A stretch of DNA of 7,861 nucleotides from Candidatus Hydrogenedentes bacterium CG07_land_8_20_14_0_80_42_17 (GTDB lineage Bacteria > UBA8481), in NCBI GenBank assembly GCA_002780065.1, contig PEWQ01000059.1:1-7861 (forward strand), read 5' to 3'. The notes beneath the pieces are model-generated. The model was given only the letters and a program-made list of their open reading frames with translations, did not search any database and was not told where the DNA came from. Both the position numbers and the translations under genes were made by a program. Shown here piece by piece: positions 4,106 to 7,861 of this stretch. The first letter of the stretch is position 1. Each line of letters begins with the position of its first letter.

Positions 4106-4179
4106 CGGGCCGTAGCGCAGTTCGGTAGCGCACCTGCCTTGGGCGCAGGGGGTCTCCGGTTCAAATCCGGACGGCCCGA
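4106..4179 (+). tRNA. tRNA-Pro (anticodon UGG)
   Basis: A full cloverleaf of 74 bases is visible. The acceptor arms CGGGCCG (4106-4112) and CGGCCCG (4172-4178) pair perfectly, with discriminator A at 4179. The D arm is GCGC...GCGC. The anticodon stem CCTGC/GCAGG encloses the loop CTTGGGC, with anticodon TGG at 4140-4142 and G37 after it. The T arm is TCCGG-TTCAAAT-CCGGA. The C1-G72 pair and A73 are typical identity elements of bacterial proline tRNAs. UGG can read all four proline codons when modified. CCA is not encoded, so it must be added after transcription. Confidence 0.96.
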
Positions 4180-4264: not shown

Positions 4265-4276
4265 TGGAAGATAGGC

Positions 4277-4326
4277 GGAGACAAGGAAAAAAAGATAAAA
4301 TAAAAAATCTCAGTGTCTCTGTTTTT
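4277..4326 (+). terminator. Possible intrinsic terminator after tRNA-Pro
   Basis: GGAGACA (4277-4283) can pair with TGTCTCT (4314-4320), with one G-T pair. Within the loop, AGAT (4293-4296) and ATCT (4307-4310) can pair as well. GTTTTT (4321-4326) follows the stem directly, as in an intrinsic terminator. The loop is long and AT-rich, so the structure is weak. It would end plus-strand transcripts of the tRNA. Confidence 0.3.
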
Positions 4327-4335
4327 CCGTGGTTC

Positions 4336-4376
4336 AAAAATGCTACTTGCACGAGCTCGGTTCTTAACTTGCAAGT
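4336..4376 (-). terminator. Possible intrinsic terminator of the aminotransferase gene
   Basis: Read on the minus strand, ACTTGCA (4376 to 4370) can pair with TGCAAGT (4351 to 4345), and a TTTTT run (4340 to 4336) follows four bases later. The self-complementary CGAGCTCG (4352-4359) sits inside the loop. The stop codon of the aminotransferase lies within the structure, at 4364-4366. A perfect 12-base palindrome, AACTTGCAAGTT (4366-4377), overlaps the first arm and offers an alternative fold. Confidence 0.4.
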
Positions 4377-5467
4377 TCAAGTAATGCCTTGATTCCGCGT
4401 TCGAGCATTGAATCATCGGCGGCATAGCTCAATCTAAAATGCGTGTCGCGCTCTGAAAAAACATTTCCCGGAATCAATAACAATTTTTTTTCTGAGATAG
4501 CTCTCGTGCAGAATTCAGTGCCTGTCCCTTTAGGCGACTCGATGAATAGATAAAAAGCTCCGCCTGCTCCTTCAATTCGATATTTATTCGAAAGAGCATT
4601 AATTAATCTGTCTCGTTTTCTTCGATACAATTCCCGCTTTTCGTCCATCGGCAATTTGAGCGCTGTCAATCCTGCAGACTGAACCATTGACGGAGCGCAA
4701 ACAAAAGAATATTGCTGAACCGTTATCATCGCTTTTACAATCTCTTCAGGTCCTACCGCATAGCCAAGTCTCCAGCCGGTCATTGCATGCGACTTGGAAA
4801 ATCCACCCATTGTCAAAACGTTTTCATAAATCGAACCCGGCGAAAACGGTTGCAATCCATAAACAAAATTGTCGTAAATCTCATCCGATATGATTAAAAG
4901 ATCGTGCTTCTGCGCAACCTCGACAACTTCTCTCCACTCTTTTTCGTCAAGCACAGCACCGGTCGGATTCGCAGGTGAAGCCGCAATGATTGCTTTTGTT
5001 CTGGGAGTTATCAGCCGCTCGATTTTCTCAGCGCTCAATTTAAATTCCGGATATGTATCTGCGTAAACCGGAGTCGCTCCGAACAATCTCAATAGATGTT
5101 TATACATCACAAAATACGGATCCGGAATTATCACCTCGTCGTCCGCTCCGAACATAGCAAGGAAAGCAAGAACAAGCCCGCCGGATACTCCAGACGTCAC
5201 AATTATTTGATCGATTTTACATGAAACTTTTTTTTGAGTTTCAATGTATTCCATCAAAGCCTCACGCAATTCAGTCGTTCCTTGCGTCAAGGTATAACGG
5301 TTTTTGCCGTCTCTAATGGCGGTAATTGCCGATTCCTTTATTTCGTGCGGAACATCAAAATCCGGCTGACCGATGGAAAGATTTATCGGATCGGATATTT
5401 TCGCCGCGAGATCAAAAACTTTTCTGATTCCTGAAGAGTCAATTACTTTCATTCTTTCATTTAGCAT
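4364..5467 (-). CDS. Class I/II aminotransferase (aspartate aminotransferase-like), PLP-dependent
   Basis: This 367-residue enzyme belongs to fold-type I PLP aminotransferases. The PLP-binding lysine is K225 in GGFSKSHAMTGWRLGY. Other active-site residues are in place: N167 of NPTG, D195 and Y198 of SDEIYD, R233 of GWRLG, and R345 of FRLSYA, which usually binds the substrate carboxylate. The N-terminal SIGQPDFDVP and YTLTQGTTELREAL are also typical. The length is normal, so the gene is intact. It probably moves an amino group between an amino acid, such as aspartate or an aromatic or branched one, and 2-oxoglutarate; the substrate cannot be read from sequence. It is transcribed away from the isopropylmalate dehydrogenase-like gene. 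No Shine-Dalgarno sequence precedes the ATG at 5467, but the promoter lies so close that the mRNA is probably leaderless. ATG at codon 6 is a possible alternative start. Confidence 0.92.
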   Translation of the reverse strand: MLNERMKVIDSSGIRKVFDLAAKISDPINLSIGQPDFDVPHEIKESAITAIRDGKNRYTLTQGTTELREALMEYIETQKKVSCKIDQIIVTSGVSGGLVLAFLAMFGADDEVIIPDPYFVMYKHLLRLFGATPVYADTYPEFKLSAEKIERLITPRTKAIIAASPANPTGAVLDEKEWREVVEVAQKHDLLIISDEIYDNFVYGLQPFSPGSIYENVLTMGGFSKSHAMTGWRLGYAVGPEEIVKAMITVQQYSFVCAPSMVQSAGLTALKLPMDEKRELYRRKRDRLINALSNKYRIEGAGGAFYLFIESPKGTGTEFCTRAISEKKLLLIPGNVFSERDTHFRLSYAADDSMLERGIKALLELAS

Positions 5468-6698: not shown

Positions 6699-7637
6699 GT
6701 GAAGAACAATTCTCCTGTTGCTATAATCGGTTGCGATGATTATTCAAAAGTTTATGACTCAATTAGTCGAGCTATTGAACTTCTCGGCGGAGCAGAAAAG
6801 TTTTTTAAAGAAAAACAAATTTTACTGAAACCGAATCTTTTAAAATCATCTGCTCCTGACTCGGCAATTGTCACGCATCCCAAAGTTATTTCAGCCGCAG
6901 TTAAAATTGCCGCTGATTATTCGTCATCAATCAAACTTGGAGATTCCCCCTCATGGGGCTCAGCTCGAGCAGTAGCGGAGAAAGCGGAATATTTTGATGA
7001 AGAGTCAATAAAAAAAATTTCGATTCTTGAATTTAAAAAAGGGAGATACGTTCATTGCAAATCAACGCAAGGACTCGATAAAATTTTTCTAGCCAAAGAC
7101 GCTCTCGATTCTGAACTGATAGTAAATCTTCCAAAATTCAAAACTCATGTTCAGATGGTGATGAGCGGAGCAGTCAAGAATCTATTCGGCTGTGTTGTCG
7201 GAAAACGTAAGCCTCTTTACCATTGCCTAGTAAGAGATTCCAAACTCAAATTTGCGCACATGCTGATTGATATAATGGAGAGTCTGCCTCCGAACCTTGT
7301 CATAGTCGATGGCGTAATGGTGATGGAAGGCAACGGGCCAATAAATGGAAATCCAAGAAAACTTGGAGTAATAATCGCAGGCACAAATCCAATTTCAATA
7401 GATACAGTAATGGCGTTTCTTGCAGGTTATAGTTCGAATGAAATACCGGTTTTAGTTGCGGCAGAGGAACGAAAATACAAAACAAAAATTAAAGAGATTA
7501 ATCTTATCGGAGACGATCTTAAGAAATTTAAAACAAATATTCGAAGAGCATCTTTCAAACCTATCACGTTCTCACCTCACAGAGTTTTATGGTCAACTAT
7601 AAAAGGAATTTTTATTAAACTTGCAGAAAAAGTGTGA
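6699..7637 (+). CDS. DUF362 protein without a C-terminal ferredoxin domain
   Basis: The 312-residue protein carries the DUF362 motifs in order: ILLKPNLL (41-48), a GDSPSWG strand (81-87), the hallmark NLPKFKTH (143-150), GAVKNLFG (157-164), VDGVMVMEGNGP (203-214), and D235 in SIDTVMA. DUF362 proteins are often redox-linked, and many end in a two-cluster 4Fe-4S ferredoxin domain. Here no CxxCxxC motif follows. The chain stops after a basic, linker-like tail (KGIFIKLAEKV), only a few bases before a GC-rich repeat array. The start is GTG: a stop at 6693-6695 excludes anything upstream, and no other start lies before the first conserved strand. There is no good Shine-Dalgarno sequence. The 17-base gap to the dehydrogenase gene suggests translation by coupling or re-initiation from that gene. 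The biochemical function is unknown. Confidence 0.85.
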   Translation: MKNNSPVAIIGCDDYSKVYDSISRAIELLGGAEKFFKEKQILLKPNLLKSSAPDSAIVTHPKVISAAVKIAADYSSSIKLGDSPSWGSARAVAEKAEYFDEESIKKISILEFKKGRYVHCKSTQGLDKIFLAKDALDSELIVNLPKFKTHVQMVMSGAVKNLFGCVVGKRKPLYHCLVRDSKLKFAHMLIDIMESLPPNLVIVDGVMVMEGNGPINGNPRKLGVIIAGTNPISIDTVMAFLAGYSSNEIPVLVAAEERKYKTKIKEINLIGDDLKKFKTNIRRASFKPITFSPHRVLWSTIKGIFIKLAEKV

Positions 7638-7639
7638 AG

Positions 7640-7762
7640 GCACAGGCGCTCCGCGTCAATGGGCGCCTCGCGTCAATGGGCGCCTCGCGTCAATGGGCGC
7701 CTCGCGTCAATGGGCGCTCCGCGTCAATGGGCGCCTCGCGTCAATGGGCGCCTCGCCTGTGC
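7640..7762. repeat. 9-base inverted repeat enclosing the 17-base array
   Basis: GCACAGGCG (7640-7648) is the exact reverse complement of CGCCTGTGC (7754-7762). The arms begin two bases after the DUF362 stop and end just past the last repeat unit. In RNA or single-stranded DNA the whole array would be the loop of this stem. With fewer units it could have been an ordinary hairpin downstream of DUF362. No clear T-tract follows the right arm. Confidence 0.7.
7645..7754 (+). repeat. GC-rich tandem array, six 17-base units plus a partial unit
   Basis: The unit GCGTCAATGGGCGCCTC occurs at 7653, 7670, 7687, 7704, 7721 and 7738, head to tail with no spacer. The unit at 7704 ends CTCC instead of CCTC. 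A partial unit with the same CTCC variant (7645-7652) precedes the array. Consequently 7645-7688 and 7713-7756 are identical, which points to growth by duplication of a four-unit block. The unit is 12/17 G+C, far above the surrounding DNA, and holds the palindrome GGCGCC. The period is not a multiple of three and the array lies outside any gene, so it is not a coding repeat. It has no spacers, so it is not CRISPR. Confidence 0.95.
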
Positions 7763-7801
7763 AAGCGACTCGGATGAGATATAATATTCCTCTCTCCCGT
7801 G

Positions 7802-7855
7802 GAACGTGTGAAATAATTGGAAAATGAAAATTGGAAAAATAAAATTTTCAATTTG
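7802..7855 (+). repeat. 54-base AT-rich element, copy 2
   Basis: This stretch matches the reverse complement of 4211-4264 at 52 of 54 positions. It lies about 165 bases downstream of the DUF362 gene, beyond the GC-rich array, near the right edge of the window. The element contains the near-repeat AATTGGAAAAT/AATTGGAAAAA at a 14- to 15-base offset. As with copy 1, it sits 3' of a gene. Whether the similarity stops at 7855 or resumes beyond the window cannot be seen. Confidence 0.85.
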
Positions 7856-7861
7856 CACTTT

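Follow-up and report, generated by a model that had tools for sequence, protein, structure and literature searches.

The GC-rich array that follows a DUF362 gene near the end of the window (the whole 7,861-nt stretch of DNA analyzed here) very probably belongs to a lineage-private family of interspersed, tagged palindromes of the REP/BIME type, in which the loop of the hairpin consists of a module in variable copy number, on a plan resembling that of BOX elements. The preliminary description had seen a 17-base minisatellite inside a 9-base inverted repeat, and this anatomy is borne out: Tandem Repeats Finder placed the array at 7652–7756 (period 17, 6.2 copies, 95% matches), and both direct inspection of the sequence and a hairpin search gave an outer stem whose 5′ arm GCACAGGCG (7640–7648) and 3′ arm CGCCTGTGC (7754–7762) are exact reverse complements, forming 9 perfect base pairs.

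The complete element is 127 nt long and lies on the plus strand at 7636–7762, with an unpaired 5′ foot GAAG (7636–7639; GGAG in most copies) preceding the first arm and a 105-nt loop (7649–7753) between the arms. The loop comprises 3 + 6 × 17 nt, with six units, each made of the core GCGTC-AATG-GGCGC, itself an inverted repeat, and a linker; the cores start at 7653, 7670, 7687, 7704, 7721 and 7738. The unit CGCGTCAATGGGCGCCT has G or C at 12 of its 17 positions, the 71% first reported. All six cores are identical and the linkers alone vary (TCC, CTC, CTC, CTC, TCC, CTC, CTC), a pattern that fits local duplication, including duplication of several-unit blocks. The arm begins, as was noted earlier, two bases past the stop codon TGA (7635–7637) of the DUF362 gene. 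The foot, which the preliminary description missed, is part of the element and overlaps that stop codon. Also missed were the dispersed-repeat nature of the AT-rich sequence downstream (about 7773–7861) and the fact that the contig ends inside it. The 3′ arm is followed by a spacer beginning AAGCGAC (7763–7799); other copies often carry AAGC(G/T)ACGCATGCTTATCC at this position, and sometimes an inverted second hairpin, which the window copy lacks.

To determine whether the unit occurs elsewhere, as the preliminary description had proposed, we searched the source genome (2.39 Mb in 207 contigs, 87% complete). It contains 38 occurrences of the 14-nt pattern CGCGTCAATGGGCG, spread over about 20 contigs, and none of its reversal, while the broader 14-nt unit core GCGTCAANRGRYGC has 183 exact matches, against 0 for the reversed control and 0–4 per genome in 40 other genomes. 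The excess over the reversed control indicates that the family is not a product of chance. With up to one mismatch allowed, the genome holds 272 matches, compared with 14 for the reversed control. A census that covered 1.29 Mb of whole or partial contigs, a sample in which contigs already known to carry elements are over-represented, yielded 87 clusters with 232 units, at 1 to 10 units per cluster.

Outside this genome the family was not found in the species genomes, viral contigs, phages or plasmids searched. The exact tandem-unit pattern was absent from the genome contigs of 84,980 species, its own genome left out, and the stem pattern, with 13 matches at home, gave a single chance-like match in 385 other genomes. 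The tandem pattern had no match in viral contigs and a Blast search of phages and plasmids found nothing related to the family, results on which we rejected a phage, plasmid or viral origin. By these searches the family is, in the genomes examined, private to its lineage. That lineage is isolated: its phylum is represented by two genomes in the searched set, and the window's isopropylmalate/isocitrate-type dehydrogenase has relatives no more than 77–78% identical, scattered over phyla.

The members of the family form a graded series. In the hairpin search the foot was mostly GGAG and the stem was 9 bp long, beginning GCAC or GCAT; among 81 unit-anchored elements, 51 have the GGAG foot, with GAAG, GGAT and TGAG as variants, and the tag stands on one side only. 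Loop lengths fell into the classes 3–4, 19–22, 37–38, 54–55, 71–74, 88 and 105–109 nt, which follow the rule 3(4) + 17n nt with n = 0–6, nested or composite cases excepted. Bare stems (n = 0) occupy about a dozen sites, with loops such as CCT, CCA, CCC and CCCT. The stem exists in several versions, each with its own complement: GCACAGGCG/CGCCTGTGC, GCACGTGCG/CGCACGTGC, GCACGCACG/CGTGCGTGC and GCATGTGCG/CGCACATGC. To quantify this covariation, we located each arm by its distance from the outermost unit on its side, together with the conserved TGC that ends the 3′ arm, which limits circularity. The inner stem positions were paired in 88.3% of cases, against 76.4 ± 2.2% when arms were shuffled among elements, and the observed value was not attained in any of 5000 shuffles; the outer stem is thus kept as a stem while its sequence changes. 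At one locus (L097, C154) the foot and 5′ arm are themselves repeated directly in tandem (about 4275–4560 on the minus strand and 4328–4400 on the plus strand) with a period of 21–22 nt, for example GGAGGCATGTGCGCGGCAGAAT three times, which is another way of multiplying the element.

The same series bears on how the loop grew. Units within an element differ by 1.77 mismatches per 17 positions, compared with 2.75 ± 0.09 after random exchange of units between elements; this greater likeness inside an element indicates that the arrays grow locally. The proposal of a hairpin whose loop expanded is well supported by this likeness and by the coexistence of bare stems with 3(4) + 17n loops, but not as the history of a single hairpin at the DUF362 gene. 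We infer that slippage or unequal exchange is the process behind the growth.

It had been claimed that every unit contains GGCGCC, so that neighboring units can pair with each other. The palindrome is indeed present in most units of the window copy, and there the pairing is preferred, with a predicted energy of −66.1 kcal/mol as RNA versus −59.0 for six separate hairpins. Genome-wide, however, the unit reads mainly GGACGCC (117 units with GGACGC versus 38 with GGGCGC), so the palindrome is a feature of the window copy and not of the family, and unit-to-unit pairing was rejected as the family fold because the commonest unit lacks it. When the window element was folded as DNA, it was more stable than its shuffles (z = −3.3). 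The unit stems also hold a clue to the strand: they contain 56 G·T pairs, which are allowed on the strand that reads GGAG first, and 15 A·C pairs, allowed only on the other. Half of the non-Watson-Crick cells come from one A-to-G variant that may have been spread by descent, and for this reason the asymmetry gives moderate support to the GGAG-first strand as the one that folds.

The position of the window copy directly after a stop codon raises the question of whether these arrays are functional RNAs of 3′ untranslated regions, that is, transcribed hairpins that stabilize upstream mRNAs or bind a protein and are selected locus by locus. The predicted transcript folds strongly (z = −2.2 at the energy given above), the G·T versus A·C asymmetry favors one strand, and BOX elements are able to enhance expression downstream of them, an effect that boxB counters depending on its orientation (PMC3049150). 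Against these points, the RNA of the opposite strand folds about equally well (−61.0 kcal/mol, z = −3.2), and the elements lie on either strand in co-directional, convergent and divergent gaps, all of which occur where both neighboring genes are known. Nor did Rfam 15 return a family for the element above the gathering score, its only match in the window being a tRNA gene on the plus strand at 4106–4179 (RF00005); a known RNA family was rejected on this ground. We consider the RNA explanation unlikely. The narrower suggestion of a transcript-end structure is not supported as far as intrinsic termination is concerned: no terminator was found at 7400–7861, the sequence after the stem being AAGCGACT, with no T-run, and the elements occur in all gene orientations.

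The host gene itself appears unharmed. The DUF362 gene (PF04015 by domain match; 6699–7637, plus strand) encodes a protein whose ortholog in a genome of the same order aligns up to residue 309 of 312, and truncation by the element was rejected since the ortholog ends at the same place. The shared end point indicates that the element occupies the 3′ flank and does the gene no damage, and by this alignment the C-terminus is natural. The elements are most likely selfish or neutral interspersed repeats that may have secondary effects on the 3′ ends of mRNAs. In the census, 70 of the 87 clusters lie outside open reading frames of at least 80 codons, although 91.5% of the sequence lies inside such frames.

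If the repeats are mobile, they might instead constitute a family of cut-and-paste MITEs, moved by a DDE transposase that recognizes the 9-bp arms as terminal inverted repeats, with the units as filler. Such a family would show the perfect inverted arms, the dispersal, the intergenic placement and the genome-private high copy number that we observe, and BOX, with its similar modular plan, has been treated as MITE-like, with terminal inverted repeats and target duplications (PMC3049150). Several self-complementary versions of the arms (GCACAGGCG, GCACGTGCG, GCACGCACG), however, suit a hairpin recognized by shape better than fixed terminal repeats, and bare stems with 3-nt loops leave scant room for two transposase ends. 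In addition, inspection of the flanking sequences by eye revealed no constant target duplication. We regard a MITE family as quite improbable. No empty site was seen either, in the one comparison available, a distant genome of the same order; both absences count against the REP-type reading as well.

We therefore return to the REP-type reading, under which a Y1 transposase would be the natural partner. The genome has four Y1 matches, and none was found flanked by two inverted GGAG hairpins, which is weak evidence in a genome 87% complete and in 207 pieces. Three of these genes were considered as the cognate RAYT. Two (C131 and C12) were rejected because each has its own unrelated inverted ends. 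The third (C2) has a bare family element about 130 bp upstream, and was rejected because its transposon has its own ends, GGGGACACAT...ATGTGTCCCC, of a kind shared by homologs in three other genomes; the nearby bare element is thus probably a chance or target-preference association.

Other repeats of related character share this genome. The RAYT-type transposon of the C2 kind, with GGGGACACAT(A/C)ACTTA ends, is present in several copies or remnants at contig ends (L086 at ∼15819, L104 at 6253, L111, L115 at 13765, L133, L147 and L155), and at least five of them stand beside GGAG hairpins or the AT-rich block, a possible target preference. Two more RAYT-like genes, around 9065–9403 of L083 and 9992–10330 of L103, each lie within their own long inverted repeat (CTTATAGTTATATAGTTAT... 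and GGGGTCAGGCTTGAACTTTTTTAC..., respectively). A GTAG-tagged palindromic repeat, GGTAGCCGCAGGCTTTAGCCTGCG, has 16 copies (L065, L070, L103 and others) and looks like a classical REP family.

The arrangement of the elements along the genome is that of a dispersed repeat in a fragmented assembly. Among 103 tagged arms, 8 pairs have their tags outward, 3 inward and 18 in direct orientation; the inverted pairs are mostly 86–138 bp across, with a conserved linker (for example AAGCGACGCATGCTTATCCAGC) between the two elements, and some elements cluster in direct orientation. Of the 87 elements, 51 are found no more than 300 bp from a contig end, a zone that makes up 5.5% of the sequence. This clustering, in a draft so fragmented, might suggest an artefact of assembly or binning, with repeat-collapsed or foreign contigs in the bin, but many copies are deep in contigs with ordinary genes on both sides and with differing unit numbers and variants, and a real dispersed repeat would produce the clustering because such repeats break short-read assembly. 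An artefact is accordingly highly improbable. An ordinary minisatellite, born of slippage in the DUF362 3′ region as the preliminary description implied with its single hairpin, would account for the tandem structure and the homogeneity within elements, but is refuted beyond reasonable doubt by the recurrence of unit, stem and foot in matching arrays at dozens of unrelated loci, which by the preliminary description's own test marks a repeat family.

The AT-rich block that adjoins the elements is also repeated. The window's last ∼89 bases (7773–7861, plus strand; GAACGTGTGAAATAATTG...TTGGAAAAATAAAATTTTCAATTTGCAC), cut by the contig end, match many loci at 85–100%. The block measures roughly 90–110 bp, and its core (TTGGAAAAATAAAATTTTCAATTTGCA) was counted 121 times here, most copies being free of mismatches, and not once in 40 other genomes. 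It looks more uniform among its copies than the adjoining hairpins do, suggesting recent spread. Because the block elsewhere leads into another GGAG hairpin, a further one probably lies just beyond the end of the window.

These results suggest the following course of events. The minimal, and perhaps ancestral, form would be the bare stem with a 3–4-nt loop. In most copies found, the loop carries a 17-nt module consisting of a 5-bp hairpin (GCGTC-AATG-GACGC) and a linker of 3 nt. At individual loci this module has multiplied to 2–6 copies or more, presumably through replication slippage or unequal exchange. We infer that the elements spread as non-autonomous, single-stranded mobile DNA recognized as a hairpin, like REPs moved by Y1/HUH transposases, and that the GGAG-first strand was the one folded during spread. 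The mobilizer may have been lost, may lie in unassembled sequence, or may not be among the genes identified. Any effect on the DUF362 transcript, such as stabilization of its 3′ end by the hairpin, would be a by-product.

A bolder version, to which we give little credence, would make the structure itself the point: a REP-like hairpin-within-hairpin transposable repeat, to whose loop self-folding 17-nt cassettes are added in strict phase, so that one strand shows a tunable row of hairpins, kept by G·T wobble on that strand only. The row would offer a modular single-stranded structure to a putative transposase or host protein, and copy number would set the strength of the effect on neighboring genes.

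Whatever its mobilizer, the family brings together in one genome a graded series that starts with tagged stems lacking any module and reaches hairpins whose loops carry at least six. The series lets one ask how an interspersed palindrome gains and amplifies an internal module, the same question that BOX poses. The family is also an example of REP/BIME-like repeats whose tag is unusual, from a bacterial phylum that has been sampled poorly, and it is probably part of the reason why the genome assembled into 207 pieces.

It is instructive to compare the family with the known systems that it resembles. Published REPs consist of an unpaired tetranucleotide tag (GTAG, GT(A/G)G or CGTC) beside a GC-rich palindrome and form inverted dimers, the BIME pairs (PMC2817692, PMC3733652); their stems measure 6–13 bp with loops mostly of 2–4 nt, and the GTAG types have a RAYT (PMC2817692, PMC3733652, PMC8266576). 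The present family shares with them the short GC-rich palindrome, the unpaired 4-nt tag at one foot, the high copy number, the intergenic position, the inverted pairs, the mosaic clusters whose linkers are conserved, the stems that vary yet stay complementary, and confinement to one lineage. It differs in its tag, GGAG, and in a loop that grows by exact 17-nt self-complementary modules to at least 105 nt, whereas published REP loops reach at most a few tens of nucleotides. It differs further in that no flanked RAYT was found for it in the 87% complete genome. Because the tag is neither GTAG nor CGTC, we describe the family as REP-like and do not file it as a REP of either class. A literature search that left most subscription journals outside its reach gave no account of a REP-type repeat whose loop expands in this way.

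The CGTC-tagged palindromic repeats (PMC3733652) are likewise high-copy tagged palindromes with no associated transposase gene, but they are unlike the GGAG family in their tag, in stems that start with AT pairs and in loops of 4–5 nt. Within the same genome, the insertion sequences with RAYT genes and terminal inverted repeats (ends GGGGACACAT..., GGGGTCAGGCTTGAAC... and CTTATAGTTATATAG...) encode Y1 transposases belonging to the REP-moving family, and one kind adjoins GGAG repeats several times; their terminal repeats are, however, unrelated to the GGAG hairpin, and they are therefore not a demonstrated mobilizer.

In its modular plan the family resembles the BOX elements of Streptococcus pneumoniae and S. 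suis (boxA-boxBn-boxC), where constant outer parts pair with each other around inner modules that vary in number and fold mostly by themselves, and where copy number differs between dispersed loci (PMC3049150). BOX elements are 67–637 bp as a whole, with longer parts, and are MITE-like with target duplications (PMC3049150), whereas the outer stem here measures 9 bp and exists in several versions, and a 17-nt hairpin serves as the module; the likeness is one of plan and not of sizes. By these analogies the family is REP-like with a BOX-like expandable loop: it shares a known plan, while its tag and its modular loop set it apart.
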